Source: a virus
Direction: 5' to 3' (one strand)
IMG/VR virus record: IMGVR_UViG_3300047476_000944
Location: 1-48,571 of that record
DNA: 48,571 nt
Part shown: in pieces, positions 10,652 through 36,445 of the stretch
Layout of the letters: every line of letters begins with the position of its first letter
How positions within the stretch are numbered: the first letter of the stretch is position 1
Notes under the pieces: generated by a model
What the model saw: only the letters and a program-made list of their open reading frames with translations
What the model was told of the DNA's origin: nothing
The model's database searches: none
Made by a program: the position numbers and the translations under genes

Positions 10652-11292
10652 ACTATTCTCTCAGGTAAAAAATAATTTTTATTGTAACTAAAACATTCTT
10701 CAGTGGGATAACTTGTGAGTGGGTTCACAGTTCCATGATATCCACTTGTTTGATAGAAAAATGGATCATCAAAAGTATAGACATTGAACCAACGCTGAAT
10801 TTCAGCAAATCCAATATCCTGATAATCTTCAATTATATATCCAGCATGATAACACACTCTCTGACACATTCTAACATATTCATCAGTTAGATACAAGATA
10901 GAGTGTCCACTAAGCATATTATATACTCGGTAAAGATCATCTTTAACACATTCATACTGAACATAAGGACCAGAATGACTATTCATTCTACCCCAAGATG
11001 AAATACCAAGATAAACTGCATCAGCATCATCAGGAACTTCAATTTCTGAACGAAAGTTTTTAATCATACAATCATCTTCAAAAAGAACAAATGGAGGATC
11101 AATCTCACAAAGTCCTTTATGGTGAGCAGAAGAACATCCCGCCACAGAATTATCCGGACGAGGAATACCTTCAACACGAATAATAGTTTTAAATCCACAT
11201 TCTTTTAGAATGTTTTGCATATTTTGATTTTTTTCAACATGCTGCTCAAGGTTCATATAAACAGCAGGAATTTCTCTAAGATCTAATTTCAT
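10648..11292 (-). CDS. Short GT25-like glycosyltransferase
   Basis: A 214-aa protein related to the GT25 enzyme at 8200: PAVYMNLEQHVEKN at the N-terminus, VAGCSSAHHKGL (equivalent to the GCTxSH segment) and FVLFEDDC. It is shorter than usual GT25 proteins, mainly in the C-terminal half. It overlaps GT6 by 17 nt and the epimerase by 4 nt. The acidic EDD site is present, so it may be active; donor and acceptor are unknown. Confidence 0.7.
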   Translation of the reverse strand: MKLDLREIPAVYMNLEQHVEKNQNMQNILKECGFKTIIRVEGIPRPDNSVAGCSSAHHKGLCEIDPPFVLFEDDCMIKNFRSEIEVPDDADAVYLGISSWGRMNSHSGPYVQYECVKDDLYRVYNMLSGHSILYLTDEYVRMCQRVCYHAGYIIEDYQDIGFAEIQRWFNVYTFDDPFFYQTSGYHGTVNPLTSYPTEECFSYNKNYFLPERIV

Positions 11293-11983
11293 TATGATTT
11301 TTATCTAATGCTAAAATTTTTGGTTTATAATATTGACTTACCACCCAACTATTTGGACTTTTTAAAGCTGCTTCTGGATAACAATAAGAGGGATCCAGTT
11401 CTAAAGTTGGTGGATTATCGATCAAATATCTATTAAGATGACTTTCATCGTGCCATAAAGCAATAATATTGTTCTCCAAATCTTTAGTTACTCTATCGGA
11501 AATTATTTGTGACATTTTGAGAAAATGTTCTGTTCTTCCTCCATTAAACCCACCAGCATAATAGGTTTTACCTTCTCCAATAGGAATATATGCTAATGAT
11601 TTTGGATTTCTTTCATACGATGCATTGTCTGGTCCATAAAAAGATTGAGATGGATGACGAGTAGCAACTAAGTCTCCAAGAACTTCATCACCAACCTTAT
11701 CTACCAGACCCATATCTACATCAAAATAGTAGCAATAATCAAACTGAGAGATAAACTCCTTTTCTTTTATAAAGTAGTTGTATCTCTTAAGAGTAGGCAT
11801 TGGCCAAGGTTCGTGGTCAATCTGACAAACTCTTACATTATCAGATGCTTCAACCTCATGATCTGTGAAGAGAAGACACTCAATTTCGTGTCCATTGAGA
11901 AAGTTCTCTTCAATGTTATCAAGGAGTCTTTCAACAAACTGAATATACTTGTTTGTTGCAATAGTTAAGATGCAGATTTTCAT
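11276..11983 (-). CDS. Glycosyltransferase family 6 (ABO/alpha-1,3-GalT-like)
   Basis: A 235-aa protein with the main GT6 signatures: YYFDVDMGL (DVD at 88-90), ATRHPSQSF (107-115), YERNPKSLAYIP (123-134), YYAGGFNGG (141-149) and ALWHDESHLNRYL (175-187). GT6 enzymes move Gal or GalNAc from UDP to the 3-OH of a galactose, often one carrying alpha-1,2-fucose, as in A and B blood-group antigens. The DxD metal site is kept. The start at 11983 overlaps the previous stop (ATGA). The family call is strong; the substrate is inferred from a GT11 fucosyltransferase in the same island. Confidence 0.9.
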   Translation of the reverse strand: MKICILTIATNKYIQFVERLLDNIEENFLNGHEIECLLFTDHEVEASDNVRVCQIDHEPWPMPTLKRYNYFIKEKEFISQFDYCYYFDVDMGLVDKVGDEVLGDLVATRHPSQSFYGPDNASYERNPKSLAYIPIGEGKTYYAGGFNGGRTEHFLKMSQIISDRVTKDLENNIIALWHDESHLNRYLIDNPPTLELDPSYCYPEAALKSPNSWVVSQYYKPKILALDKNHNEIRS

Positions 11984-12573
11984 ACTTGAACATACCAAAC
12001 ATGCGCTGGTTCACCAACACCAGTAACTTTATCACCATAATGTTCGACAACTGCTTTCTGCACACCTGGATGACCGCTGTGTTCCCAATCATGTCCCATC
12101 ACATACCCACCTTCACGAACTCGATGATGCCAAAAACTAATGTCATTGAAACAATTTTCATAATCATGAAAGGCATCAATAAAAACAAAATCTAAACATC
12201 CATCTTCAAAATCTGGAGCAGCATCAACAGAAGTCTTACGGACAAGTTCAACTTTATCTCCATAGACACTTAACATATCACGAACTTCTCCATAAAGACC
12301 ATCAAATCCACCATATTCTTTATCAAGATCAAAATATTCATGCATATCCCACCCAGCATCATAATAAGGATCAACACCATACATCTTCTCAATGCCGGTA
12401 TTTTCCATAAGTGCCTTGATGTGCTGACCACCAGCAACACCAATCTCAGCACCAATTTTTAGTTCAGGATGTTCTTGGAAAAATTTAATTGTCCAAGCGT
12501 ATGTTGGTTCCCAAATCAGTCTGGTTTTTCCTCTTGTAGGATCTGGAACATTTTTTGTTTTAGTCATTTTCAT
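11980..12573 (-). CDS. Class I SAM methyltransferase (type 24-like)
   Basis: A 197-aa protein with motif I GAEIGVAGGQHIKALM, a YGVDPYYD segment binding the cofactor ribose, and CLDFVFIDAFHDYENCFND, a pattern of the Methyltransf_24 family found in glycan and lipooligosaccharide loci. It could O-methylate a sugar hydroxyl. AAAGGAGA lies just upstream, and it overlaps both neighbours by 4 nt. The substrate is unknown. Confidence 0.8.
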   Translation of the reverse strand: MKMTKTKNVPDPTRGKTRLIWEPTYAWTIKFFQEHPELKIGAEIGVAGGQHIKALMENTGIEKMYGVDPYYDAGWDMHEYFDLDKEYGGFDGLYGEVRDMLSVYGDKVELVRKTSVDAAPDFEDGCLDFVFIDAFHDYENCFNDISFWHHRVREGGYVMGHDWEHSGHPGVQKAVVEHYGDKVTGVGEPAHVWYVQV

Positions 12574-16359: not shown

Positions 16360-16737
16360 TTATCTTTTTAAAAAATCAATAATCTGTTTTTTGTAGATAG
16401 TGTGAGAGTTTAAAACTTTGTCATCTATCAAAACATCATAGTGTATTTTTCCCATTACAAGTTGATGATATTTTAGACCCCAAGAATTTAGTTGTCGATT
16501 AGTTTTGTTATATAACTTACTATAAATTTCAATAACATTTCCATTAAACTGACTCATACCTCTTGCGGTATAAACCACAATCTTATATCCATCACTATAA
16601 AGAGAATTAACTAGATCAATATTCTCAATGTATGGTTCACAATAATCATACTTTTCTGGTCCAAGATGCTCATAACCAGATGGTCTATAACACAGAACAT
16701 CATCTAGATCAAATGCAATAGTTTTTTGTTTGCTCAT
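16360..16737 (-). CDS. HAD-superfamily phosphatase-like protein A
   Basis: A 125-aa minimal HAD protein: IAFDLDDVLC (motif I with nucleophile D10 and D12), IVVYTARGM (motif II Thr) and VLIDDKVLNS (acidic motif III/IV region). Small HAD proteins of this sort occur in capsule loci. A second HAD protein is encoded at 20774. They may remove phosphates from sugar intermediates. It overlaps the aldolase-like gene by 29 nt. Substrate unknown. Confidence 0.75.
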   Translation of the reverse strand: MSKQKTIAFDLDDVLCYRPSGYEHLGPEKYDYCEPYIENIDLVNSLYSDGYKIVVYTARGMSQFNGNVIEIYSKLYNKTNRQLNSWGLKYHQLVMGKIHYDVLIDDKVLNSHTIYKKQIIDFLKR

Positions 16738-17701
16738 TTAATAACTTAAGTTTAGAACTAATTCTCTTTTGTATCAATTGGTCTGCATTAGGGAATTGAG
16801 ATTTTATCTTTTCAAGAAAAACTTCATCAGATAAAACATAATGGCAGCAAGTCATTATTAATTCCGATTTGGAAATTCTGCTAATATCTTTTACCCACTT
16901 TTTCCACTTACCTGAATTATAGCATACCTGATATAATTCTTCAAAGAGTTCTTTATCTTTCTTACACTCTTCCAAGTAATATTCAGATTCAATTTGCCCA
17001 AATTCGGGAGCAATGTTAATAGCATCTAATCCCGTTTCAAATCTCAATTCAACATCAAAAGAATCTGTAAGATAATCGCCATTATGTTCCTTACCCATTA
17101 ATCCAAACTTTTTAACTACTTTAATGAAAGACTTCAATCTTTTTTTATTAAAGTTGCCAGTATTAGTTCTTGTTGATAAATCTAATCTTGTTCCAGACTG
17201 GACAACAGCATATTTTATTTGAGAAAACTGTTCTTCCGTCAGTCCCATTTTAAGGTAGTCAAGAAACCATTTCAATTCTTCTGGTTGGTATCTATATATT
17301 GCTTCCTCAGTTCCAACCTCATACATTAAATTTGAATTTGAAAGAGTTTGTATTACTTCTTTTGTTTTTTCAGCAGCATCCAACATCGTATTAGAAACTC
17401 TAAATGGATCTATATGAATTAGATCAAAATATTGCGAGTCACTTAAAAAAGAAGATAATCCATCATCCAATTCTTGTCCCTGATTCTCCCCACCATGATC
17501 TCTACAAAGAAGGACAGAAGAATTAGAACCTCTCACATATTCAGAAAAAGTTTGGGTATTCCAATTATTAGCATACCCACTACAATAGTCAACTTGCCTT
17601 CTAGACGGTATAAGACCGATAGAATGTTGCTGACCATGATTGATTACACAATCAACAACATTTTTACTCATTGGGCCAATATAATATTTTGGAAATATCA
17701 T
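16709..17701 (-). CDS. GatZ/KbaZ-like class II aldolase-type TIM barrel
   Basis: A 330-aa protein. VLLCRDHGGENQGQ, FDLIHIDPFRVSN and NLMYEVGTEEAIYRY resemble GatZ/KbaZ, the non-catalytic partner of tagatose-bisphosphate aldolase, at the metal and substrate face of a TIM barrel. No GatY/KbaY-type partner is visible here. It is coupled by ATGA to the nucleotidyltransferase-kinase fusion, which suggests it makes or modifies the sugar that fusion activates. The family call is moderate and the reaction is unknown. Confidence 0.5.
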   Translation of the reverse strand: MIFPKYYIGPMSKNVVDCVINHGQQHSIGLIPSRRQVDYCSGYANNWNTQTFSEYVRGSNSSVLLCRDHGGENQGQELDDGLSSFLSDSQYFDLIHIDPFRVSNTMLDAAEKTKEVIQTLSNSNLMYEVGTEEAIYRYQPEELKWFLDYLKMGLTEEQFSQIKYAVVQSGTRLDLSTRTNTGNFNKKRLKSFIKVVKKFGLMGKEHNGDYLTDSFDVELRFETGLDAINIAPEFGQIESEYYLEECKKDKELFEELYQVCYNSGKWKKWVKDISRISKSELIMTCCHYVLSDEVFLEKIKSQFPNADQLIQKRISSKLKLLNEQTKNYCI

Positions 17702-19254
17702 TTAAGATTTAAAAAAAGATTGTATTTGCCAAAATAATATAGAAACATATCAAGTGGATGTTCGTGTAGCGGTGCCATATTAATCCAAATGATTGAACTC
17801 AATGTTTTAATATTATTATAATCAATCCCATTATTATAGCAGAAATCTTTAAGATATTCTTGACGCTCCAAATTGGACTTTTTCACATAAACGTCACAAA
17901 CAATTTCTTTCTTACATTCAATCTTAAAATGATTATTAGCAAGAACGTGATGATTTAATGTTAGATTATGATTGAGTTTTGCAAGATCATAATTCATATC
18001 ACCAGCATCAATACTTCCGTTAAAATCTTGTCTCCAATCAATCAAAGTAAATCCATTCTCATTAATAAGAATATTATCTAGAATAAAATCCCCATGAAAT
18101 CCTGTTGGATTCTTACCTATTAAGCAATCAAAATTAATCTGCTCAATAATATTCTTCAATGGAGGAACTTGAATACCATTAATAACGTCAGCAGTATCTT
18201 CTAAATTATATTTTTCTAAGAACTTATCGATCCTTTTAAGTGTCTTATCTTTATAAAATGAAGTTGCATTTTCTTTGTAAGATAGATCTTCCTTCCCAAT
18301 CCAAAGTTTTTGATTTGCCCAAGAAAGTAAATCAACAAAATTAATAAGATTAGTTGAATCTGCAAGTAGATCCGCTTTGATGAATTTATACTTATAAAAG
18401 TTCTCAGTGCTATCAAGTAGAGTTGGAATAAGTCCTTCCAAATTTTTTGTTCTTGCTACACGATCAGAACAAATCTTCTTATTATAAAAGAACTTGATTA
18501 CAAAATCATTAAACACAAAAATATTTTCATCCTCCTTATCAAGAACATGAACTGTTCCTTTTATTTTAGATCTTGTTTTTTTCAGAGCATCGATATTACC
18601 AATATCATACCACTCATCAATATTAATAACATCAAAGTTATTCATTTTACGAATAACATGACAATCACTCAGATCACTTGTTTTAACTGATTTAATAATA
18701 TCATTGCAAATTTTCCAGAACTCTTGGTAATTTTGTATTCCAGAAACCCCAACGTAAATATAATCAAAGTTTTGCTCACCCTTTTCATTAATAGAAGCAA
18801 TCTTTTCATTAACGCAATTGATTGTTCTATATGATTGACTATTATCTCCACTACCACCAATAGACCAATTTGTAGAAAAATCTACACCTTTAATATAATT
18901 TTTTGGAAGAATAGTATCACAAGCGTGAAAGATAAAAGGGCATTGTAGATTCTCTTCACATAAAGAAATGGAGTAAAGTAGACTGCTACCCTCCCCCATA
19001 TAATTGTCAACTTCTACAAATTGAATATTTCTTTCTGGATGTGCAAGAGTCAAATATTGTTTGACATGAGATCCATAATGCCCCAAAGTCACAATAAACT
19101 CAATATCATCAGAGTATGACTCAATAATATGAGAAATAACTGGTTTATCACCAACTCTAACTAAACTCTTGTTTGTAAACTTAGTTAAATTTCCAAGTCT
19201 AGATCCAAGACCACTAGTAGTAAGTAGAACTTTATACTCTGTCATATTTGTCAT
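17698..19254 (-). CDS. Nucleotidyltransferase-kinase fusion
   Basis: A 518-aa two-domain enzyme. Residues ~8-230 form a sugar-phosphate nucleotidyltransferase: TTSGLGSRLGNLTKFTNKSLVRVGDKP is the GxGxR...K core, with FHACDTIL as metal site. Residues ~245-515 form an aminoglycoside/choline-kinase-type domain with HGDFILDN (H387, D389, N394) and LIDWRQD (D406). One chain could therefore phosphorylate a substrate and couple it to a nucleotide, as LicA and LicC do separately for choline. Start may be 19254 or the ATG at 19245. Substrate unknown. Confidence 0.8.
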   Translation of the reverse strand: MTNMTEYKVLLTTSGLGSRLGNLTKFTNKSLVRVGDKPVISHIIESYSDDIEFIVTLGHYGSHVKQYLTLAHPERNIQFVEVDNYMGEGSSLLYSISLCEENLQCPFIFHACDTILPKNYIKGVDFSTNWSIGGSGDNSQSYRTINCVNEKIASINEKGEQNFDYIYVGVSGIQNYQEFWKICNDIIKSVKTSDLSDCHVIRKMNNFDVINIDEWYDIGNIDALKKTRSKIKGTVHVLDKEDENIFVFNDFVIKFFYNKKICSDRVARTKNLEGLIPTLLDSTENFYKYKFIKADLLADSTNLINFVDLLSWANQKLWIGKEDLSYKENATSFYKDKTLKRIDKFLEKYNLEDTADVINGIQVPPLKNIIEQINFDCLIGKNPTGFHGDFILDNILINENGFTLIDWRQDFNGSIDAGDMNYDLAKLNHNLTLNHHVLANNHFKIECKKEIVCDVYVKKSNLERQEYLKDFCYNNGIDYNNIKTLSSIIWINMAPLHEHPLDMFLYYFGKYNLFLNLK

Positions 19255-19567
19255 CCAATCTTACGATGTCATCTTCACCAAAGTATTCGCCCAACTGAAT
19301 CTCAATAAAAATCAGATCGGTTTCACCAATATTTTTTACTTGATGTTTTGCCTGTTTAGATATTGTAATTACATCACCAATCACATGCGTTGAAATATTA
19401 TCATCTATTTTAACTTCCGCAATACCTTTAACTATAATCCAAATCTCACTTCTCTTAAAGTGATATTGATAACTTGGCGATTCGCCAGATTTAATAACAA
19501 TCTTTTTTACTTTTGTATAATCTTCTTCTAAAAGATTAGTATAAGATCCCCATGGTTTTAGTTCCAT
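19232..19567 (-). CDS. Mannose-6-phosphate isomerase-type cupin
   Basis: A 111-aa single cupin closely patterned on the C-terminal isomerase domain of type II PMI/GMP proteins: ELKPWGSY start, SYQYHFKRSEIWIIVKG with metal-binding His and Glu, GDVITISKQAKHQVKN, then IEIQLGEYFGEDDIVR and a final DKY. It would interconvert fructose-6-P and mannose-6-P and so feed GDP-mannose to Gmd. No GDP-mannose pyrophosphorylase domain is attached; the host could provide it. The start at 19567 is preferred over 19579. Confidence 0.75.
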   Translation of the reverse strand: MELKPWGSYTNLLEEDYTKVKKIVIKSGESPSYQYHFKRSEIWIIVKGIAEVKIDDNISTHVIGDVITISKQAKHQVKNIGETDLIFIEIQLGEYFGEDDIVRLDDKYDRV

Positions 19568-20340
19568 ATAAATTCCCAATTTTCAAGTTTAGGTAAAAGT
19601 AACATATTTAAAAATTGATTATTACATTCAGGACTACCACACATACGATGTGATTCTTTTCTTGCATAGGCATGTAAATGAACTTTAAAATTGCTCAATA
19701 AAAATGCTGATTGCATATGATAAACAAATAAAGATACTGTGTTCTCGATAAGATGAATATCATCAGAATTTTCTAGTATCTTTAACACATCCACCAAATT
19801 TGGTGAAATATTATGAAGATTGACAACCTTAGAATGTTTTAAATACTTTCTATCTATAAGGTTTTCACCATATTCGCATACGACTGAATATGGTTCAGTT
19901 AAGTCTAAACTATCGAAAAGTTTTTCTTCAAGATCTACTTTTCTAGAAAAAAAGAAATGTTTATTTTTAACTTCTGGATTGATGCCAAGTTTAATATAGA
20001 AATTGTCCGAATTTGATGTTGGTCCAATATGGTTATAATCTTCTAAGGGATTCTGATTACTCCAATAATTACCACTACCAATTCTAGGATAATACTCATT
20101 AACCCTAGTATCAATTACATCCTCATTAGTACATACCCTCTCAAACTCACGATCCATTATTGTGGATATTTTTGGATCATCCCCATACAACAACTCTACA
20201 AAGTTTTTACGAGTTTCATTATGTTCTAAAACAAGATAGACTTGTTTATAACGATATTGTTGAATTAAATATCGAACAAGACCATTGATACTTACCCAAT
20301 CACCAAAAGCATCATAATGTCTTACAAATATTGTTTTCAT
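19558..20340 (-). CDS. GT9-like protein, paralogue 1
   Basis: A 260-aa protein with an N-terminal FVRHYDAFGDWVSINGLVRYL that resembles the glycine loop of heptosyltransferase-type (GT9) GT-B folds, and a C-terminal YSVVCEYGEN ... DIHLIENTVSLFVYHMQ ... VHLHAYARKE block. The same arrangement occurs at 28654 and more distantly at 22828. The HLIEN segment could be the donor-site glutamate region. It overlaps both neighbours. Assignment to GT9 is tentative; a glycosyltransferase role is supported by context. Confidence 0.6.
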   Translation of the reverse strand: MKTIFVRHYDAFGDWVSINGLVRYLIQQYRYKQVYLVLEHNETRKNFVELLYGDDPKISTIMDREFERVCTNEDVIDTRVNEYYPRIGSGNYWSNQNPLEDYNHIGPTSNSDNFYIKLGINPEVKNKHFFFSRKVDLEEKLFDSLDLTEPYSVVCEYGENLIDRKYLKHSKVVNLHNISPNLVDVLKILENSDDIHLIENTVSLFVYHMQSAFLLSNFKVHLHAYARKESHRMCGSPECNNQFLNMLLLPKLENWEFIWN

Positions 20341-20777
20341 ACAAAGGCAGGATAATCGGTGCATATACCAAAAGGTTTTTCACCAATAGGTACAAAGCAT
20401 TCAACATCATCACGATCAATAAGAGGAATAATTACATTTCCATCAATCTTCATTGAAAGATCATGCAACCAAATTTTTCCAGTCGATGTATAAGTAAATG
20501 GATCTCCTGTATGGCAAAAAGAATGATATGCCCAACACTCTGTTGCTGCTTCAAGATTTTTACAATGCAACCACAGATAATGCCTACGCTTATCTAACCA
20601 GTTATGGTCAATTTTATATTGCGGTTCATCATGTCCCAACCACAACTCACCATCAATTGAACGAACATCAATTTCTACATGATATCCATTTCCAATCGCA
20701 CAGTCAATGTAACTTGGACGATTTTCTTTATCAGGAACTGGTCCCCGAATATTGCCGCGATGAGAAATAATAATCAC
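20337..20777 (-). CDS. GDPD-like phosphodiesterase domain protein
   Basis: A 146-aa protein with a GTG start that overlaps the HAD gene by 4 nt. It reads ISHRGNIRG (His6, Arg7), KENRPSYIDCAI (Glu18-Asn), YHVEIDVR (Glu and Asp) and LWLGHDEP (His-Asp): the order of catalytic and metal ligands in glycerophosphodiester phosphodiesterases, though the full family is longer (about 240 aa). The C-terminal half ends early with LIDRDD and GICTDYP. It may hydrolyse a phosphodiester in glycan assembly, or be a sugar-binding relative. Confidence 0.65.
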   Translation of the reverse strand: MIIISHRGNIRGPVPDKENRPSYIDCAIGNGYHVEIDVRSIDGELWLGHDEPQYKIDHNWLDKRRHYLWLHCKNLEAATECWAYHSFCHTGDPFTYTSTGKIWLHDLSMKIDGNVIIPLIDRDDVECFVPIGEKPFGICTDYPAFV

Positions 20778-21085
20778 AGTTCTTCAATCCTCAGAGATTT
20801 ATCTTCAATAAACAAATCATAAAATGGTTTATCTACTCGCAACTCATGATATTTTGCACCCCATTCTGCAAGTTGTCTTGCAGTAAGTTCTGTCCAGTCA
20901 ATTTGTTTACGACTACCCCGAGCAGTCCAATAAACTATCGTATGACCTTCATCATAAAGTTTATTAATTTTCTCTACATTCTCTCGAATAGGTTTTGCTT
21001 TTGAATAATCGTGAGTGGTTCCAAAGTCAACAGAAGTTTCGCGCTGACAAATAGTTTCATCAATATCAACATAGATAATTTTCAT
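20774..21085 (-). CDS. HAD-superfamily phosphatase-like protein B
   Basis: A 103-aa minimal HAD protein: IIYVDIDETIC (nucleophile Asp with Asp two residues on), VYWTARGSRKQ (motif II) and DLFIEDKSL (acidic end). It is shorter than its counterpart at 16360 and shares the WTARG/YTARG motif and a WG(A/L)KYH segment. It is overlapped by 4 nt on both sides, by class II aldolase and GDPD-like genes. Substrate unknown. Confidence 0.75.
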   Translation of the reverse strand: MKIIYVDIDETICQRETSVDFGTTHDYSKAKPIRENVEKINKLYDEGHTIVYWTARGSRKQIDWTELTARQLAEWGAKYHELRVDKPFYDLFIEDKSLRIEEL

Positions 21086-21753
21086 TGATACATATTTCTC
21101 CTATAATTTTCATTTGGGCAAGTATCAACATCGGCAACTTCTTGTTTTGTTAAGAACTTAACTCCACCCAAAAGTTTTGCCCCGATAAAAATATCGGCAG
21201 ATTTTTCGCACATTAAAGTTGCAGCGGCACAATCTTTTTTAGATGCAGATGCTGTGATTATACCATGATTTTGGAGAAGTATCAATTTAGGAAAATACCC
21301 CTCATCATCCACAAACTTTGACACATGCTTATCAACTAACTTTAAAATTGATTCGCCAGGAGGAGCATAAGGAACAACACAAGACTTAATTCCATTCCTC
21401 ACAATTTGATCTGGAAACCATCTGTGGTCTGCAAAATCATATAGAACAGTTGGTTCAGAACAAAGAATCTTGGTTGTATATGGAGGGTGCGTATGTGCAA
21501 TAAAGTTGATATCTGGAAATGTCTTCATAATCCAAGCGTGAAATGACGTTTCAATGCTTGGTTTCTTATGGAGAAGTTCTATTTGAGCACCATTTGTATT
21601 GCACAATGTCAGGTCTTCTTCTGATAGTGTATGAAGACTTGTTCCACTTGCTTTAATGAGGAATGTATTTTCATCTACTCTTACTGATACATTACCTTCA
21701 CCACAGATAGTGTATTCACTAATTTCTCTTGCTAGCTCTAGTATTTCAGACAT
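21082..21753 (-). CDS. Class II aldolase/adducin-family protein
   Basis: A 223-aa protein with GEGNVSVRV (substrate loop), ASGTSLHTL, FIAHTHPPYT (metal ligands His-x-His), and LLQNHGIITA (third His), all typical of the fuculose-1-phosphate/rhamnulose-1-phosphate aldolase family. These cleave or form C-C bonds in phosphorylated ketoses, using zinc. Metal ligands appear complete. It overlaps the GT61 gene by 8 nt and a HAD gene by 4 nt. Substrate cannot be told from sequence. Confidence 0.82.
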   Translation of the reverse strand: MSEILELAREISEYTICGEGNVSVRVDENTFLIKASGTSLHTLSEEDLTLCNTNGAQIELLHKKPSIETSFHAWIMKTFPDINFIAHTHPPYTTKILCSEPTVLYDFADHRWFPDQIVRNGIKSCVVPYAPPGESILKLVDKHVSKFVDDEGYFPKLILLQNHGIITASASKKDCAAATLMCEKSADIFIGAKLLGGVKFLTKQEVADVDTCPNENYRRNMYQ

Positions 21754-22831: not shown

Positions 22832-23598
22832 AACACAGTCCAATCTCCACTCTCCTCTATTTTTTTATAATCAAAAAACTTAGGTATTTTCATTCTAGCA
22901 TACTTATGGAGATAAAACTTTGGTCCCCTTAATTGATTTGAAAAATATAAAAAGTAACAAAGTATTCCATAAAGACTATCATTTAAATACACTAAAGGAT
23001 ATTTTACATATGAAAGATTCATACCTTCAACATAATGAATAACAGAATATTCATCAGTAGAAACTATCTCAGAATACTTATTCTGTTCAGATTGATAATC
23101 TCTTATAATTTCAAAATAATCAAATGCAATAGAATGTTCTAATCCAGATAAAGTATAAAAACCTATTCTTTCATCAAAATCCGGATCATTAATATCTCTT
23201 TCTTTAATATTTGAGATATTATGCCAGGCAGTTTTTTCTAATGAATTGCAGTTAATTTTTTGTATTTCCGTTCTTGGTTTAAGATTCTGCCTTAGACAAG
23301 ATCGTATAAAACTATCCGAACACTGATGCCCATCAAGTAAAAACAAATAGTCCTCATCAAATAATCTCCTCGAAACTAAATCTATTTCACCTTGATCGGG
23401 ACAAGGAACAAAAATTAAATCAAAATCTGGATATAGTGCTTCCAAAAATTGTTTTTGATGAGGAAGACATATCAAACTTACAGATTTATATTGAGTTTGA
23501 TAATACCTAACCATACCAACATGTTGGAGAAGATCTGTCCACCCCCAATGTAGCATTAAAACGGCATCAATATCTTTACTAATTGGTAAAGTAGTCAT
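22828..23598 (-). CDS. GT9-like protein, paralogue 2 (divergent)
   Basis: A 256-aa protein that shares the architecture of the proteins at 19558 and 28654: N-terminal LHWGWTDLLQHVGMVRYYQ in place of YDAFGDWVSINGLVRYL, then YSVIHYVEGMNLS and a C-terminal FYLHKYARMKIP matching VHLHAYARKE. Identity is low, so it is a remote paralogue. The start is uncertain within 23598-23625; all choices overlap the upstream gene slightly. Probably a glycosyltransferase. Confidence 0.5.
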   Translation of the reverse strand: MTTLPISKDIDAVLMLHWGWTDLLQHVGMVRYYQTQYKSVSLICLPHQKQFLEALYPDFDLIFVPCPDQGEIDLVSRRLFDEDYLFLLDGHQCSDSFIRSCLRQNLKPRTEIQKINCNSLEKTAWHNISNIKERDINDPDFDERIGFYTLSGLEHSIAFDYFEIIRDYQSEQNKYSEIVSTDEYSVIHYVEGMNLSYVKYPLVYLNDSLYGILCYFLYFSNQLRGPKFYLHKYARMKIPKFFDYKKIEESGDWTVL

Positions 23599-25132
23599 TT
23601 CCATATTCATAAGGATGCCATCCAACTTTATTAAAAAATCTTTGCCAATACTGATAAGTCTTTAAATCATTTGGAGTTCCCCAACAAATATAATTCTCTA
23701 TCTCAAAGTTCTTCACTTTGTATCCCAACTCTATTGCCCCGTTAAGCATACTATCAACATAAAACTCACCATTAGTTCTATTATTATTCTTGTAGAGAGA
23801 TTCAAGAGAAAGGTTAAAGATTTCTTTTGATCTGAAAAACATAGTTCCAGTAATGGCAAACTCGTTTACAGGATCAGTTCCAGTAAATTTTTTAACGTCA
23901 ACACGACTTACATTCCCATCCTCATCACATTTAACCCAAGAATATGCTTCTGGTTGCAAATGACTCGTATAGTTATTTCTATATGTCCATACAATTATAT
24001 CATTTTCTTCATCATTTACCAAATCTAAAAACTTATCAGCGTCATAAAACACTCCATTATCACAAGCAGAAATCAAAATAGAAGAATCTGGATCAATCAC
24101 ATTGACGATTCTTTCTGTTGTGCAAGCCTGACCTTCAAGAACTTCATCAATCCAAACCGTATTTTGACCAGGTGATTGATGACCTTTTAAGCAAGCATAA
24201 ATGACATCATCAGTTTTTGGTAGACAGCGAACTGCCTGATCGACCATATCTTTACCATTGACTTGAATGAATGGTTTAGGTGCATTGTATCCTTCCTTTG
24301 AAAAACGACTCCCAGAACCTGCCATAGGAAGAGCAAGAGTGCAGTTTTCAAGTCTAACTTCTTTCTGACCTTCTAGTGCTTTACGATAATAATTTGACCA
24401 ACTATTATAAACATCAAGATCAAATGGAGTTCCCCATTGAAGCATATAAGGAACTTCATAAACAAGACTTGTAAGTTCATCACGAACAAGTAGGTTATAT
24501 ACAAGACTTACATAATACTCACCATTAATATTTAAATCTTCGTCCATTAACTGTTTAAAGTATTTTTTAACGTAACTTCCTTTTCTAAAATAATAATTTC
24601 CAGCAGAAGCAAACTCAGACATTTTATCGTCTGTAAATGGTTGCTTCTCACGAACTTCTAAAATCTTATTGTCCCCATCAGTGCGGCAGAATGCATAATT
24701 ATCACTACCCAGCATATGAGGATGAAATCCAGTATAACAAATTACACATCCATCACACTCGGTTGCATCAATAAAACCTTTAAAATGACGATAATCCCAA
24801 TAGATTGAAAAGTCACAGTAATTGATGATAACTTCCTCTTCATCATCAATCAAATTTTCAAACTCAGAAACTGAAAATACTGGACCTTTTTTATGCCTAG
24901 GAATAGTAACTATTTCTTTTCTTTCTACAAGTTTATCTAATATCTCAACTATATTAGTTTCTTCTTTATGCTTATCATTGATAATAAAAACAAATTCACT
25001 ATCTTCAGGATAAAGATTGACGATATGCTCTATAACCTTTCTTCCATCAACTTCAATAAGATATTTTGGAATGTCATATCCAGCAGCAGCAAATCTACTA
25101 CTCATACCAGACATTGGAATAACAATTTTCAT
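23579..25132 (-). CDS. Tandem-duplicated sugar nucleotidyltransferase
   Basis: A 517-aa protein with two complete nucleotidyltransferase domains. The first (residues 1-250) has PMSGMSSRFAAAGYDIPKYLIEVDG, and the second (266-517) has PMAGSGSRFSKEGYNAPKPFIQVNG. Both continue with NGE(Y/F)YV and a WGTPxDL near their ends, so an internal duplication is clear. Such domains join a sugar- or alcohol-phosphate to NTP. Two sites could work in sequence or on two substrates. A late-promoter-like AATAAATA lies 19 nt upstream. Specificity unknown. Confidence 0.85.
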   Translation of the reverse strand: MKIVIPMSGMSSRFAAAGYDIPKYLIEVDGRKVIEHIVNLYPEDSEFVFIINDKHKEETNIVEILDKLVERKEIVTIPRHKKGPVFSVSEFENLIDDEEEVIINYCDFSIYWDYRHFKGFIDATECDGCVICYTGFHPHMLGSDNYAFCRTDGDNKILEVREKQPFTDDKMSEFASAGNYYFRKGSYVKKYFKQLMDEDLNINGEYYVSLVYNLLVRDELTSLVYEVPYMLQWGTPFDLDVYNSWSNYYRKALEGQKEVRLENCTLALPMAGSGSRFSKEGYNAPKPFIQVNGKDMVDQAVRCLPKTDDVIYACLKGHQSPGQNTVWIDEVLEGQACTTERIVNVIDPDSSILISACDNGVFYDADKFLDLVNDEENDIIVWTYRNNYTSHLQPEAYSWVKCDEDGNVSRVDVKKFTGTDPVNEFAITGTMFFRSKEIFNLSLESLYKNNNRTNGEFYVDSMLNGAIELGYKVKNFEIENYICWGTPNDLKTYQYWQRFFNKVGWHPYEYGNDYFTN

Positions 25133-25158: not shown

Positions 25159-25888
25159 GATTCCTGGAAGGATCAATAGTATATGGTGCAGAAAAATATT
25201 TAACTTCCAAACCCTTATCATAAACGTTCTGTGTCACAGATGGTTCAAAAGCAATTGGATATAAACCTTTCCACAGTACATTCATTTCTAAACAGTATTC
25301 ATATGTTTTGGTGTAAGCGTCCATTACGATACGGTTTCCATATACAATTGCATCAGAAATCCAAGGAGCATCAATAGTTTCTTGAAGTCTCCAATCACCA
25401 GGTCCATTGTAAATAGTCGGTTTAGATCTATCAATTACAGGAGAATAATGACTATTCCAAGGAACGACAGAAAATAATTTATATTCTTCTGTTGTCTGAA
25501 TACTGGGTAGTGAGTTAGTAATAATATCAGAACGATATTTCATATATGCATCATATTCAAAATTATTATCATCGGCATATTGAGTTGCTAATTCAAATGC
25601 TTTTTGATCATTAAAAAACATTGAGAGTTGATTATATGGTAGTGGTTCATTAGTGCCACTATTCATATTGATAAAAATATCTTTGTAATGCTGGGGAATA
25701 ACATAAGGACAGATATATTCACCCTTCAACCATTTTGAGAGATTATTCAATGCTTGATTGTGGTAATCATCCCTATCAGCATTAATTGAAATAAACAAAT
25801 CAACATTATAATCACTTGATTCCAATAAAGGAATCAAGCAACTTTCATAACACTTCAATCTTCCAGATATTAAAACTGCAACTCTCAT
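25154..25888 (-). CDS. Putative glycosyltransferase, unassigned
   Basis: A 244-aa protein. The N-terminal VAVLISGRLKCYESCLIPLLE followed by VDLFISINA resembles GT-A proteins found in giant viruses and phages, where a 'SGxxR' loop precedes the nucleotide site. Later segments include YDAYMKYRSDI (possible acidic site) and ISDAIVYGN. The start at 25888 overlaps the fucosyltransferase stop by 4 nt, so it is probably part of fucose-glycan assembly. The family is not certain. Confidence 0.6.
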   Translation of the reverse strand: MRVAVLISGRLKCYESCLIPLLESSDYNVDLFISINADRDDYHNQALNNLSKWLKGEYICPYVIPQHYKDIFINMNSGTNEPLPYNQLSMFFNDQKAFELATQYADDNNFEYDAYMKYRSDIITNSLPSIQTTEEYKLFSVVPWNSHYSPVIDRSKPTIYNGPGDWRLQETIDAPWISDAIVYGNRIVMDAYTKTYEYCLEMNVLWKGLYPIAFEPSVTQNVYDKGLEVKYFSAPYTIDPSRNQ

Positions 25889-26685
25889 ATTACAATCCAT
25901 TCTGGTAAATATAAATCACTAAGATCTTTCGAAGCGTCTGGTCCAGCAAACCAAATACTTGGAGCAACTGTCTTTTTACTCTTCGCTAACCAAGCACCCC
26001 ACCAAGAGAATGAAGAATTAGCAATGATGTGATATGTGCAAAGAGATTGGAGGCAAAGATCAACGCCAGTGCTGTTTCCTTCTGCAAAAATAAAACGATC
26101 TCCCTGAAAAACTTCTTGCTCCTTACACCACTCAATTCCATCAGAAAAAATCATTACAGGAATATTCTCTGGCATATAAGATAATCCCTGAGCATAATAG
26201 TCCAAGGTTTGTACTGGATGATGTGGGTATTGTAGATAGTCTCCTCTACGAAGATGAATAGCAATTACTTCTTCATTGCCAAAGTTTGACTTGAATGCTT
26301 CTTCTGTTGGTTCACGAATTTCATCAACAAAAGTAAATGCATCACGAATTTGTTTTTCAATATGTTTGAAATACTTTTCAGTTTGAAAATAACCATACAA
26401 ACTAATATTATCTGGACATTTATCCCAAAGATTTTGATCTAATCCAAAGGTATCTTCCATTATCTTTGGAAAATTAGTTACATGCTTAGGGGCATCAGGA
26501 ATTTTAAAACACTCAAACATTGTAATATCTGAATTTGCACAATTAATGTCTCTGGTTGCTACAACTTCTCTCGGAGGAAGACAGTATTCATATCCATGTC
26601 TCTGAGCAAGACCACGTAATCCAGTATATTGGAACATTTGATTTCCAAGCCTACCCAGATTTCCTAAATCATCATTTGCAAGCAT
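25885..26685 (-). CDS. Alpha-1,2-fucosyltransferase (GT11)
   Basis: A 266-aa protein with GT11 signatures: GRLGNQMFQYTGLRGLA at the N-terminus, HLRRGDY (H144-D149) binding GDP-fucose, FSDGIEWC, and ANSSFSWWGAWL (222-232). GT11 enzymes transfer L-fucose from GDP-fucose to the 2-OH of galactose, forming H-type structures. It lies directly behind gmd and fcl, which make the donor, overlapping fcl by 14 nt. Family assignment is firm; linkage and acceptor are inferred. Confidence 0.92.
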   Translation of the reverse strand: MLANDDLGNLGRLGNQMFQYTGLRGLAQRHGYEYCLPPREVVATRDINCANSDITMFECFKIPDAPKHVTNFPKIMEDTFGLDQNLWDKCPDNISLYGYFQTEKYFKHIEKQIRDAFTFVDEIREPTEEAFKSNFGNEEVIAIHLRRGDYLQYPHHPVQTLDYYAQGLSYMPENIPVMIFSDGIEWCKEQEVFQGDRFIFAEGNSTGVDLCLQSLCTYHIIANSSFSWWGAWLAKSKKTVAPSIWFAGPDASKDLSDLYLPEWIVI

Positions 26686-27631
26686 TTTCTTTATACCATT
26701 GGTAAGTTTGTTCTATACCTTTACGAAGACTAATTTTTGGTTCCCATCCAAATGCCTTGATCTTATCCACGTTCAAAACTTTGCGGGGAGTTCCATTTGG
26801 TTTTGTAGTATCCCACTCAATATCTCCAGGAAAACGAACAACATCAGAAATTGTATGAGCAAGTTCTTTAATTGTTACATCCTCACCAGTCCCAACATTA
26901 ATGTGCTCTGCTCCATCATATTTCTGCATACAAACATAACATGCCTCTGCTAAATCATCAACATGTAGAAACTCTCTCATAGCAGAACCATCACCCCAGA
27001 GTTTCACGGAACCATAATAAGGTCCACCCATATCAATTGTATATCCGTGCTCTTTCATATAATGGAACTTAGCAATCATCGCAGGGAGAACGTGTGATGT
27101 CTCCAGATCAAAGTTATCATTAGGACCATAAAGGTTCGTAGGCATCAGGGAGATAGCATTAAACCCATGCTGTTGGCGATATGCCTGGCACATCATAATG
27201 CCAGCAATCTTAGCAATCGCATAGGCATCATTCGTTGGTTCCAAAGCACCAGTCATCAACTGATCTTCAGTAATGGGTTGAATTGCATACTTAGGGTAGA
27301 TGCAAGATGAACCAAGGAACAGAAGTTTTTTTACACCACAACGATAAGCAGAATCAATAATATTCGTCTGAATACGGAGATTTTCAATAAGAAAGTCTGC
27401 TTTGTAGTTGTTGTTTGCCATAATACCACCCACTTTGGCAGCAGCAACAAACACATACTCAGGTTCTTCTGAGCAAAAATATCTTTCAGTTTCATCTTGA
27501 TTTGTAAAATCAATATCATCACGAGTGCCTTTGATGATATTGTTATAACCTTTGCTCTCAAGGTTTCTCACTATTGCAGATCCAACCATTCCGTTGGCAC
27601 CGCAAACTAATACTCTAGAATCACTGTCCAT
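26672..27631 (-). CDS. fcl: GDP-L-fucose synthase
   Basis: A 319-aa bifunctional epimerase-reductase (GMER/WcaG) converting GDP-4-keto-6-deoxymannose to GDP-L-fucose with [22 protein letters not shown] binds cofactor; FLGSSCIYP holds catalytic Ser and the neighbouring Cys; [11 protein letters not shown] carries Tyr-xxx-Lys; [13 protein letters not shown] and [12 protein letters not shown] are family blocks. The start at 27631 overlaps gmd by 11 nt. Length is normal for the family. Confidence 0.95.
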
Positions 27632-28622
27632 AAATGCACATATCCTCAACTAATTGTTCAAATGAAATTTTAGGTTCCCAACCTAGTTTTTCTTTTGCCT
27701 TCGTGGGATCACCTAATAAGGTCTCTACTTCAGCAGGTCGGAAATATTTAGAACTCACTCTTACAATCTCTCTTTTAGTAAGTTTATCTATACCAACCTC
27801 ATTAAGTCCTTCACCTTCCCAAGCAATTTTCATTCCAAAATAAGGTGCTGCTGCCTCAATGAACTCTCGCACTGAGTACTGATCCCCTGTAGCAATTACA
27901 TAATCATCTGCTTCATCTTGCTGAAGCATCAACCACATTGCCTCTACAAAGTCTTTAGCATGTCCCCAATCACGTTTCGCATTTAGGTTGCCGAGATATA
28001 GTATATCTTGTTGCCCAGTTGAAATGCGTGATAATCCGCGAGTGATTTTTCTTGTGACAAAAGTTTCTCCTCTTCTAGGGGATTCGTGATTGAAAAGAAT
28101 TCCAGAACTTGCATGTAATCCGTAAGACTCTCTGTAGTTTTTAACGATCCAATATCCATAAACTTTAGCGACTCCATAGGGTGAACGAGGATAAAAAGGC
28201 GTTGTTTCTTTTTGTGGAATTTCTTGAACCTTACCAAACATTTCAGATGTTGATGCCTGATAAATCCTAGTTTTACTTTCCATTCCAAGAAGTCGAACTG
28301 CCTCAAGAATACGAAGAGTTCCTAATCCATCAGTTTGACCTGTATACTCAGGCATCTCAAAAGAAACCTTAACGTGACTTTGAGCACCAAGATTATAAAT
28401 CTCATCAGGTTGAACTTGCTGAATCACTCTTACAAGGTTTGTAGAATCAGTAAGATCTCCATAGTGAAGTTTAATTCTATCGTAAATATGATCAATTCTA
28501 TGTGTATTAATCAAAGAAGCACGGCGAATTATACCGTGAACTTCATATCCCTTTTCCAGAAGAAGTTCAGCAAGATATGAACCATCTTGTCCGGTAATTC
28601 CTGTAATTAATGCTTTTTTCAT
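27621..28622 (-). CDS. gmd: GDP-mannose 4,6-dehydratase
   Basis: A 333-aa extended SDR enzyme converting GDP-D-mannose to GDP-4-keto-6-deoxy-D-mannose. [18 protein letters not shown] is the Gmd-specific NAD(P) loop, followed by [17 protein letters not shown] (catalytic Thr/Ser-Glu), [12 protein letters not shown] (Tyr-xxx-Lys) and [16 protein letters not shown]. The start at 28622 was chosen because the motif begins there; the extension to 28661 has no homologous character. It is followed by fcl and GT11, a complete local route to fucosylation. Confidence 0.96.
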
Positions 28623-28653
28623 ATAAAAATAAAAGGTATGATAATTAGTAATT

Positions 28654-29565
28654 TTAATCAAAAATAAAATTCCAATTATCTAATTTTGGTTTCATGTATA
28701 CTTTATAATTAGATTTTCTCCAGTTTTCTTTTCTACAATAACAATGGAAATTAATTGGAACTTTTTTCATTCTATTAGTTATTTGTAAAAAATAAATAAA
28801 CATAGAAAAAGAATTTTCAATTAGATGAACTTCTTGAGCATTTTCAATTAATTTCACAATATCAAAATATTTTTTAGAAAGCATATGAATATTAATAATA
28901 TTATTACAGGTAATATACTTTCTAGAAATAATATTCGATTGATTGTAATCAGATATTTTTTTAATATGATTTAAAACAGTATCACCTAAACCTGGTGGTT
29001 TGTCATATTCACAAACTACTGCATATGAATCTGGTAGATTTAACTCTTCTATTAAAGTGTTTTCATCATTCTCTAATCTAGAAAAATCAAAACATTTATA
29101 TTTCATTTCATCAGGAAATCCCATTTTATTATAAAATTCAGACACCATATCCAAATCATTTAATCGTTGAACATTAAATCCAAATTTATGTCCGATGGGA
29201 TTTTTTTGACTATAAACCTCAGTAAAGATATTTTTTGAGTGAAAATCTGGAACTGTAACAGATGAATCATCATAAACACTGTTAGGTTCTTTTTTACATG
29301 TGTCATTTATATAATCACTGCCAAGTAAACACATGCAATCTAATTCATCACAAGATTCACCAAAAATATCATTAAACATAAAATAATCATAAGACATTGG
29401 AAAAACTTTATCGTTTGAAGAATATAAATGTTCTATTACAGATAAAAAATTCCAATGAACTAACATAATTATTTTATCATAATAAAGAGACAAAAAATTA
29501 ACCATACCATTAACGGCAATTTGATCTCCATAGGCACTATAAGTGGATATGAATAAAATTTTCAT
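28654..29565 (-). CDS. GT9-like protein, paralogue 3
   Basis: A 303-aa paralogue of the protein at 19558: N-terminal [21 protein letters not shown] matches [33 protein letters not shown] matches [26 protein letters not shown] matches IHLIENTVSLFVYHMQ, and both end in PKL(D/E)NW(N/E)FI. It is very AT-rich. The pattern fits a GT-B glycosyltransferase, tentatively GT9-like. It stands between a 179-bp non-coding gap and gmd. Confidence 0.6.
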
Positions 29566-33923: not shown

Positions 33924-34487
33924 TTATTGAAGTGGTGCTTGTTGTGGAATTTGTTCCTGAGGTTGTTCTATAGCAACATCCTCTATTGCCATTTTTTGAT
34001 TTTTTTCTGTGATAGATCTCAGCATCCACACAAACTTACCATGTGATTCCATCAAATCTTGAAGAAGGTTTTCAGATGCATAAGATCTTTGGGATCCAGC
34101 AACCTCTGATGCTTCTGTCAATAGTTCTAAAAAGATAAGATTATCTGCTAGAAGTCTTTTAACCATATCATCAGATTTGGTGATTGGTTTACCTGGAAGA
34201 ATTTGTCTTTGTCCAAGTTCATCAACTTGAACAATATCGGAACCTTGTCCAACAGTAGAAACTTCCACAATTCTTGTGAGAGTTCCAACTGGTCGAACAT
34301 TCAAAAATCTCATATGTTCGGCAAGACGATCAATCTCTTCAAACATTGCTTCATATTGTTCACCAAATAATGTATGAAGTTGTTGAAAATCAGAACCGAC
34401 TACATTCCAATGAAAAACCCAAGTCTTATGAAATAATACAAAAAGATTTGAATGAATATCACTCAGCAACTTATATAAACCTTCCAT
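33924..34487 (-). CDS. Dps/ferritin-like protein
   Basis: A 187-aa protein whose first ~155 residues form a Dps-type four-helix bundle. The ferroxidase ligands H26, H38, D53 and E57 (WVFHWNVVG, QQLHTLF, EEIDRLAEHM) have the same spacing as E. coli Dps H51, H63, D78 and E82. Dps proteins oxidise and store iron and shield DNA from peroxide. The C-terminal Gln/Pro-rich tail is extra. A perfect TATAAATA late promoter lies 22 nt upstream, so it is made late; packaging or protection of replicating DNA is possible. Confidence 0.87.
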   Translation of the reverse strand: MEGLYKLLSDIHSNLFVLFHKTWVFHWNVVGSDFQQLHTLFGEQYEAMFEEIDRLAEHMRFLNVRPVGTLTRIVEVSTVGQGSDIVQVDELGQRQILPGKPITKSDDMVKRLLADNLIFLELLTEASEVAGSQRSYASENLLQDLMESHGKFVWMLRSITEKNQKMAIEDVAIEQPQEQIPQQAPLQ

Positions 34488-34975: not shown

Positions 34976-36445
34976 TCAGAAACGGAAAGTCGTCTGAATT
35001 ACACCACCCCAGTTAGAGGAGTTATCAGCAAGGCGCTGGTTATCACTTCCGTAGATAATAGCAGGAGTGACACTAATGTTATCAGACACTTGATACTTGT
35101 AGAAAATCTCAAGCATCGTTGCCTTTTCAAGATCTTCCCCAGTAGGTGCCTGTCCGATAGCAACGCCAGCAGAGTTACCATCAACAAACACATCATCCCA
35201 AGTCAAACCAGCAAACCAAGACTGACTGTCGGTAGCAGCACTAGTAGTACCACTCACAGTGTTCCAACCATAACCTGCAGAGACAGAAGGAACAATACCA
35301 GACTTCTTAGGTTGCCAGTATGCGTTCAGAGCATAACCGTTGGAAGTTTGACCAGGAACCAAAGTACCAGAGGAACCATTCAGACCGTTGTAAGTACGAA
35401 CACGGGTGCCTTCAGTACCATAACGATAACCAAATGCAGCACCCCAGTTAGTACCACGATAACCAATCTGTGCGAGAGTATTCAGAGCACCAGTCTCATC
35501 AAACTCACCCTTAGAACTATCTTGACCTGCTTGTGCAACGTAGTTTACACCAGCAACAAGACCTTTCTTACCATACTGAACACCGAAACCAGCACCAGTT
35601 GCCTTGTTATAAACACCAGGAGTACCAGCAACGGCAAAGAAGTCAAGAATACCAGACTTATAAGCAGAAGGCATCCAAGCAATCTCAGTGTTACGAACAA
35701 CAGCACCAGCAGTCAGAGTTGCTTTGTTATTGAAAGCAGGGAACTGATAATACAGGCGGTCGATAACTACGTTGTTACCAACTTCACTGGAAGTATTATC
35801 TGCTTTATCCAGTTTGAAAAGCGAAGAGCTGGAACCAAAAGGATCACTGCTAAAGTTAGCAGAACGCAGACGGGTCTTGAGAAGATCCTTACCAGTGAAT
35901 GAAGTGTCTAGGTTCAGACGCAGATCATAATTGAATGCTGCATGAGTTACATCACCACCTTTGGTCGTGTAATTATCCACATTACCAAGAACGAAAGATG
36001 CTTCACCGCGCAGTTTAGTGGTAGTGGAGAACTGGGTTGCTTCAAGTTGTCCAACCTGTGCTTCCAGTTTAGAAACACGTCCTTGAATTACTGTAAGTTC
36101 ATTGCGGAACTCATCGGCAAGACGCTTCAGTTCATCAGTTTGCTCGGTTACACGGTCAAGGCAAGCATTGAGAAGTGCTGCTGCCTCATATCGGGTCATT
36201 GCCTTACCACCACCATAGGTACCATTAGGATAACCAGCAACACAACCATAACGTTCTACAAGGTTGCTGAGTGCTTGATATGCCCAATCAGTAGGTTGCA
36301 CATCAGAAAGTTGATTAATACTTGTAACCTGCTCAGAAGAAGCGTATTGGTTGACTGCTGCCATATTAAGATCTGCGGCATTCGCAGCAACAGGAGCAAC
36401 CATTCCCAGAGCAACAGGTGCAAGCATCAGTTGTTTGAGTTTCAT
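34976..36445 (-). CDS. Cyanobacterial-type outer-membrane porin with SLH domain
   Basis: A 489-aa protein of the SomA/OprB-type porins that span the cyanobacterial outer membrane. Residues 1-23 are a signal peptide (cut near ANA). Residues 45-100 are an S-layer-homology domain (DVQPTDWAYQALSNLVERYG, MTRYEAAALLNACL) that ties the protein to the cell wall. Residues 100-137 form a coiled coil. The remainder is a Gly/aromatic beta barrel ending in IQTTFRF, with the terminal Phe used by the barrel-assembly machinery. It probably replaces or adds to host porins during infection, changing uptake or receptor exposure. Confidence 0.92.
   Translation of the reverse strand: MKLKQLMLAPVALGMVAPVAANAADLNMAAVNQYASSEQVTSINQLSDVQPTDWAYQALSNLVERYGCVAGYPNGTYGGGKAMTRYEAAALLNACLDRVTEQTDELKRLADEFRNELTVIQGRVSKLEAQVGQLEATQFSTTTKLRGEASFVLGNVDNYTTKGGDVTHAAFNYDLRLNLDTSFTGKDLLKTRLRSANFSSDPFGSSSSLFKLDKADNTSSEVGNNVVIDRLYYQFPAFNNKATLTAGAVVRNTEIAWMPSAYKSGILDFFAVAGTPGVYNKATGAGFGVQYGKKGLVAGVNYVAQAGQDSSKGEFDETGALNTLAQIGYRGTNWGAAFGYRYGTEGTRVRTYNGLNGSSGTLVPGQTSNGYALNAYWQPKKSGIVPSVSAGYGWNTVSGTTSAATDSQSWFAGLTWDDVFVDGNSAGVAIGQAPTGEDLEKATMLEIFYKYQVSDNISVTPAIIYGSDNQRLADNSSNWGGVIQTTFRF

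Follow-up and report, generated by a model that had tools for sequence, protein, structure and literature searches.

Several described systems bring together the enzyme types considered here. In the GmhA/HddA/GmhB/HddC heptose pathway, a ketose phosphate is isomerised and then handled by a C1 kinase, a terminal phosphatase and a nucleotidyltransferase, with the kinase acting before the phosphatase. AmgK, from the MupP-AmgK-MurU route of N-acetylmuramic acid (MurNAc) recycling, is an APH-type sugar kinase. This recycling route leads from a HAD phosphatase through a kinase to a nucleotidyltransferase (PMC5371407, PMC5371409). GatZ and KbaZ of E. coli, once called aldolase chaperones, are reported to be ketose-6-phosphate C4 epimerases, which convert fructose-6-phosphate to tagatose-6-phosphate (PMC11907403). 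Here, we describe four adjoining genes in a 48,571-nucleotide viral record (IMG/VR IMGVR_UViG_3300047476_000944, positions 1 to 48,571; hereafter the window), which encode a cupin, a nucleotidyltransferase-kinase fusion (FUS), a GatZ/KbaZ-like class II aldolase barrel (ALD) and a small HAD phosphatase (HAD). The reading that we favour, with moderate confidence, is that they form a compact nucleotide-sugar biosynthesis module whose product is used for surface glycans, because ALD and the cupin are replaced elsewhere by Rpe and HxlB and because GatZ/KbaZ have published 4-epimerase activity. Homology, intact motifs, gene linkage, this replacement and purifying selection all support it.

The four genes constitute one conserved module. 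They lie on the minus strand in the order cupin, FUS, ALD and HAD, and their reading frames overlap by 23, 4 and 29 bases. The cupin (CUP; 19232..19579), of the mannose-6-phosphate-isomerase C-terminal type, is a proposed aldose/ketose phosphate isomerase; its in-frame ATG at 19567 is probably the start and marks the end of the stretch in which an earlier reading of the letters alone (the sequence-only reading) had placed these four open reading frames. FUS (17698..19254) joins a nucleotidyltransferase (residues ~1-230) to an APH-type kinase (~240-518), ALD (16709..17701) is a proposed ketose-phosphate epimerase assigned by profile and predicted fold, and HAD occupies 16360..16737. Compared with other viral contigs, the module genes show ratios of nonsynonymous to synonymous substitution (dN/dS) of 0.06-0.32 by a simple estimate, with synonymous sites close to saturation in some viral pairs, and they are under purifying selection; for the cupin gene the range is 0.06-0.24. 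Catalytic motifs are intact in alignments of all four proteins. Since the catalytic positions are conserved and dN/dS is low, the loss of key catalytic residues that had been raised as a possible objection is not seen.

A search for the same neighbourhood, proposed in the sequence-only reading, found the order again in viral contigs and both FUS and ALD in cellular genomes. The IMG/VR contigs found by ALD or FUS (L003-L019) each carry cupin, FUS, ALD and HAD together; in some, a TylF-like methyltransferase gene separates FUS from ALD. In Marine virus AG-345-E15, the cupin-FUS-ALD set has a HAD on its opposite side. In cellular genomes, where ALD was sought in 84,980 species' genomes and the best 80 of 157 matches were used, ALD and FUS share loci in an alphaproteobacterial assembly (L029), a Flavobacteriaceae assembly (L033), Gribaldobacteria (L034), an archaeal assembly (L036), Bacteriovoracaceae (L038) and a further bacterium (L097); as most such loci are metagenome assemblies, the archaeal occurrence needs confirming. 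Among 349 genomes from the phylum of L029, searched at E<1e-40 for FUS and E<1e-20 for ALD, each protein was found in seven, and the two lists are identical. With the seed genome excluded (6/348 each), the naive chance of this overlap is 4e-13, uncorrected for relatedness, and the true strength of the co-occurrence is lower because several genomes are close relatives. The overlap is less clean in Bacteroidota (297 genomes), where FUS is present in G002, G233 and G252 and strong ALD matches occur in G002, G233 and G127, with weaker KbaZ-like matches in other genomes. The co-occurrence of FUS and ALD largely refutes the view that the genes are chance neighbours, that is, unrelated glycan genes serving separate pathways. 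The window cluster does contain many unrelated glycosyltransferases and methyltransferases, and FUS and ALD each stand alone in some genomes, but the identical presence in 7/349 genomes, linkage repeated in several phyla and in viruses, cupin-FUS fusions and the overlapping frames in the window make mere coincidence highly improbable.

Our preference for a sugar as the substrate, and not an alcohol, rests chiefly on the replacement of ALD and the cupin by Rpe (ribulose-phosphate 3-epimerase) and HxlB (6-phospho-3-hexuloisomerase). In the genomes of L118, L161 and L162, FUS is kept, ALD and the cupin are absent, and the genes for HxlB and Rpe adjoin or lie close to those for FUS and a KdsC-like phosphatase. 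Both L118 proteins score above the NCBIfam cut-offs, and those of L161 and L162 were assigned through 56-66% identity to them. The flanking KdsC-like phosphatase and C-methyltransferase-like genes in L161 and L162 belong to the same families as those in ALD-type loci (L097, L119). When 17 genomes were collected by FUS alone, nine had ALD (in seven of them, the two lie close together on one contig), three had Rpe and HxlB instead and five had neither, one of these last at a contig end. The simplest reading is that ALD with the cupin and Rpe with HxlB are alternative epimerase and isomerase front ends acting on sugar phosphates. The surrounding glycan cluster, with its GDP-fucose-type gene pair, and the lack of a LicD match among those cluster proteins that were compared with Pfam are further reasons for this preference, so that, where the sequence-only reading had offered a sugar or an alcohol, the former is favoured and the latter is not.

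FUS contains Pfam NTP_transferase and APH domains, and its nearest PHROG families are listed as of unknown function. The top match of its predicted model (mean predicted local distance difference test, pLDDT, 90) in the Protein Data Bank (PDB) is LicC (1jyk, TMt 0.81), followed by RmlA-type, PntC and inositol-1-phosphate nucleotidyltransferases. LicC is also the top match of the nucleotidyltransferase part by sequence (E 1.3e-5) and by profile (2e-12), which bears out the earlier description as LicC-like; MurU models match weakly, far below cut-off. Relatives all keep G15, G17, K29, D113 and D217. In the kinase part, conservation over all alignment rows is at least 90% for H387-G388-D389, N394 and D406, which are invariant in a kinase-only alignment. 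The kinase profile gave no significant match against the PDB and can be placed no closer than the APH superfamily, so the earlier label of a choline-kinase-type domain holds at the level of the superfamily and not of the narrower sub-type. A plasmid search with a cellular FUS gave no match.

These similarities bear on a different reading, in which FUS would phosphorylate choline, ethanolamine, glycerol or a small polyol and turn it into a cytidine diphosphate (CDP) derivative, in the manner of LicA and LicC. LicC is the best match by sequence and fold, PntC and CTP:inositol-1-phosphate transferases are close, and the nucleotidyltransferase-kinase order is that of LicCA fusions. However, RmlA-type sugar nucleotidyltransferases score nearly as high as LicC, the kinase profile lacks a significant PDB match, no LicD was found among the cluster proteins scanned, and the cupin-FUS fusions, the aldolase/epimerase barrel and the Rpe and HxlB alternative point to sugar phosphates; we regard alcohol activation as quite unlikely.

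Two further arrangements involve FUS-like proteins or their parts. In Enterococcus phage 9183 (L148:6645-8620), a HAD gene adjoins a distant FUS-like nucleotidyltransferase-kinase with 22% identity to a cellular FUS, which suggests that other phages, too, have a HAD and FUS pair that lacks ALD. Several viral contigs encode, immediately downstream of the module, a beta-phosphoglucomutase-type HAD fused to a nucleotidyltransferase (L003:7341-8711).

ALD itself has no usable match in Pfam (PF08013), NCBIfam (TIGR02810), PHROGs or a single-sequence PDB search. PF08013 is matched by 7 of 21 relatives, and a profile of the relatives matches E. coli GatZ (2fiq, E 9.3e-6), 3txv and KbaY (8q57). The predicted model (pLDDT 89) resembles class II fructose-bisphosphate aldolase (FBA), KbaY, YdjI, UxaE and a tagatose 4-epimerase. 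D68, H69 and H206 are invariant in 36/36 relatives and E132 is found in 34/36, with Asp in the other two; in a HMMER alignment, D68/H69/E132/H206 correspond to D87/H88/E171/H257 of E. coli GatZ. A model-based proposal assigns GatZ His/Glu/His metal ligands and a catalytic Asp, in contrast to the three His of FBA (PMC11907403). The term GatZ/KbaZ-like is thus upheld by the relatives' profile, the fold, the metal ligands and the Asp, but not by the family models or by Glu44 and Lys279, residues named as separating GatZ from aldolases (PMC11907403). The sequence-only reading had also seen a puzzle in the absence of the usual catalytic partner. A barrel without KbaY or GatY is not anomalous, because GatZ and KbaZ are themselves reported C4 epimerases (PMC11907403), and we rejected the idea that GatZ is an inactive chaperone in need of a partner.

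In a tree of ALD relatives (quick method, long branches, midpoint root), the module and marine Bacteroidetes proteins are split by a strongly supported branch from Firmicutes, Enterobacteriaceae and other KbaZ-like proteins; viral ALDs group together, with deeper placement unsure. Among plasmids, a cellular ALD matched KbaZ-like relatives, which are mostly annotated as tagatose-bisphosphate aldolase subunits. Several candidates were set aside: a phosphoenolpyruvate (PEP) mutase or phosphonate origin, for which no motif was seen by eye; a 743-residue frame around ALD in G326, taken to be an overextended reading frame and not a fusion; and 'Listeria phage' matches, which come from unverified contigs where a KbaZ-like gene adjoins phosphotransferase system (PTS) genes and do not represent the module.

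The cupin matches Pfam PF01050 (E 2.4e-28), in agreement with its earlier description as phosphomannose isomerase-type, and in L029, L033 and L164 it is fused to the nucleotidyltransferase-kinase. Q38, H40, E45 and H79 are invariant over 11 relatives and by position fit the metal-ligand pattern of cupins. The full signature of type II phosphomannose isomerase, QMHHHRAEHW, is incomplete in the window protein and reads QYHFKRSEIW, with several extra His replaced. HAD matches the EcbF-BcbF and HAD-IIIA families and PNK3P weakly and phrog_1238 with E 5e-25; its DxD motif (D10, D12) and T57 are invariant among relatives. One of two HAD-type phosphatases accompanies most module copies, namely the small type in viruses, L029, L033 and L034 and a KdsC-like type (TIGR01670 family, below cut-off) in most other cellular loci, L034 having both. 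The presence of two phosphatase types across loci suggests that dephosphorylation is a required step of the pathway.

The KdsC-like enzyme, present in many cellular loci, also invites a view of ALD as a genuine class II aldolase that builds the carbon skeleton of an ulosonic acid, branched sugar or cyclitol, which the KdsC-like or small HAD would dephosphorylate and FUS would activate. AroE-like, SnoaL-like and C-methyltransferase-like genes lie nearby, and the ALD fold is common to true aldolases. Against this, ALD is replaced by an epimerase, Rpe, and has the His/Glu/His metal set of GatZ and not the three His of FBA (PMC11907403); synthesis of a CMP-ulosonate would need no kinase; and most copies lack AroE and SnoaL genes, neither of which was found in the window. 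Skeleton building of this sort appears unlikely.

For the nucleotide-sugar module that we favour, the enzymatic steps, their order, the substrate and the nucleotide are all inferred. Through a retro-aldol/aldol mechanism, ALD would epimerise a ketose phosphate, most likely at C4 like GatZ/KbaZ, and the cupin would interconvert ketose and aldose phosphate. HAD would then take off the terminal phosphate, the APH domain of FUS would transfer a phosphate to the free sugar, probably to its anomeric position, and the nucleotidyltransferase of the same chain would join the sugar phosphate to a nucleotide, the resulting nucleoside diphosphate (NDP)-sugar passing to the surrounding glycosyltransferases. 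From the phosphatase onwards, the scheme follows the logic of MupP-AmgK-MurU (PMC5371407). Equally possible is that the kinase acts before the phosphatase, as in the Gmh/Hdd route. Starting from fructose-6-phosphate, the product might be NDP-talose or NDP-galactose, and from xylulose-5-phosphate, NDP-L-arabinose or NDP-L-ribose. The sequence-only reading had proposed formation, phosphorylation and nucleotide coupling of a small substrate, and linkage and intact motifs support a single module of this kind. It had also recognised no standard pathway with this combination, and no published or named pathway with this gene set was found in the libraries and open-licence papers searched.

Several observations weigh against this scheme. 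GatZ E44 corresponds to I31 in ALD (Val in 4/36) and K279 to an invariant N229, so that the substrate or reaction of ALD may differ. FUS occurs without ALD in the Bdellovibrionota genomes L165, L166, L167 and L169. Conversely, marine Bacteroidetes (L020-L028, L030-L032, L035) carry ALDs with 45-50% identity to the phage protein and no FUS nearby, the L021 copy lying among housekeeping genes, and FUS is missing genome-wide from the two such genomes tested. The usual phosphatase of cellular loci is of the KdsC-like type known from ulosonic acids, and the scheme gives no role to the AroE-like gene found with ALD or FUS in L029, L033, L120 and L164 or to the SnoaL-like proteins at several loci.

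The window itself is part of a T4-like cyanophage, since its nrdA has 82% DNA identity to Synechococcus phage S-SRM01 and matched 313 phage records, nearly all from cyanophages. The module lies inside a glycan cluster on the minus strand (about 8.2 to 30 kb), which encodes glycosyltransferases (GT) of families GT25, GT6, GT47, GT2 (two), GT61 and GT11, methyltransferases, NAD-dependent epimerases, and a GDP-mannose 4,6-dehydratase with an adjoining epimerase that we infer to be of the GDP-fucose-synthase kind. This pair and GT11 occupy 25885-28661 and GT6 lies at 11276-11998, which suggests that the phage itself makes GDP-fucose and fucosylated glycans. A second HAD (20774-21085) adjoins a class II AraD/FucA-type aldolase or epimerase (21082-21753; top NCBIfam model L-ribulose-5-phosphate 4-epimerase, below cut-off); the two are kept alongside the module in viral contig L011 and are possibly a second sugar-phosphate pair. 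At 23579-25132, a 517-residue protein (phrog_3980, unknown function, E 7e-174) consists of a tandem pair of nucleotidyltransferase-like halves. Outside the cluster, the phage encodes a Ferritin/Dps-like protein (33924-34487, PF00210) and a full-length cyanobacterial porin-like protein (34976-36445, 489 residues) with 71% identity to the S-SRM01 'porin' and short partial matches only in four other phage records.

The favoured reading offers a testable function for an uncharacterised GatZ/KbaZ branch and for the nucleotidyltransferase-kinase fusion, and a front-end swap on a constant kinase-nucleotidyltransferase core would show how new activated sugars can evolve. During infection, the cyanophage may supply an unusual sugar of its own, with which the host surface or the virus particle would be modified. 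More tentatively, interchangeable epimerase/isomerase front ends, either KbaZ-like with cupin or Rpe with HxlB, on a shared kinase-nucleotidyltransferase core could represent a widespread, undescribed route to NDP-rare sugars for bacterial and possibly archaeal surface glycans, through which cyanophages would alter host or virion glycans.

Compared with E. coli GatZ/KbaZ (PF08013), ALD shares the class II aldolase-like barrel and the aligned His/Glu/His ligands and Asp, but it is shorter (330 versus ~420 residues), has no Pfam match, carries replacements of E44 and K279, and is encoded beside a nucleotidyltransferase-kinase fusion and not a PTS. Like MupP-AmgK-MurU, the module encodes a HAD phosphatase, an APH-type kinase and a nucleotidyltransferase together, whereas its kinase and nucleotidyltransferase form one chain, an epimerase barrel and a cupin stand in front, and nothing points to a MurNAc substrate, the MurU models matching FUS weakly. 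The GmhA/HddA/GmhB/HddC pathway has the same isomerase, kinase, phosphatase and nucleotidyltransferase step types, but HddA belongs to the GHMP kinases and GmhA to the SIS proteins, in contrast to the APH kinase, cupin and 4-epimerase-like enzyme of the module. With LicC/LicA and LicCA, it shares the top match of the nucleotidyltransferase and the nucleotidyltransferase-kinase arrangement and differs in its sugar-phosphate isomerising enzymes and in the absence of LicD from the scanned cluster. The module is most likely a variant form of NDP-sugar biosynthesis rather than a new kind of system.

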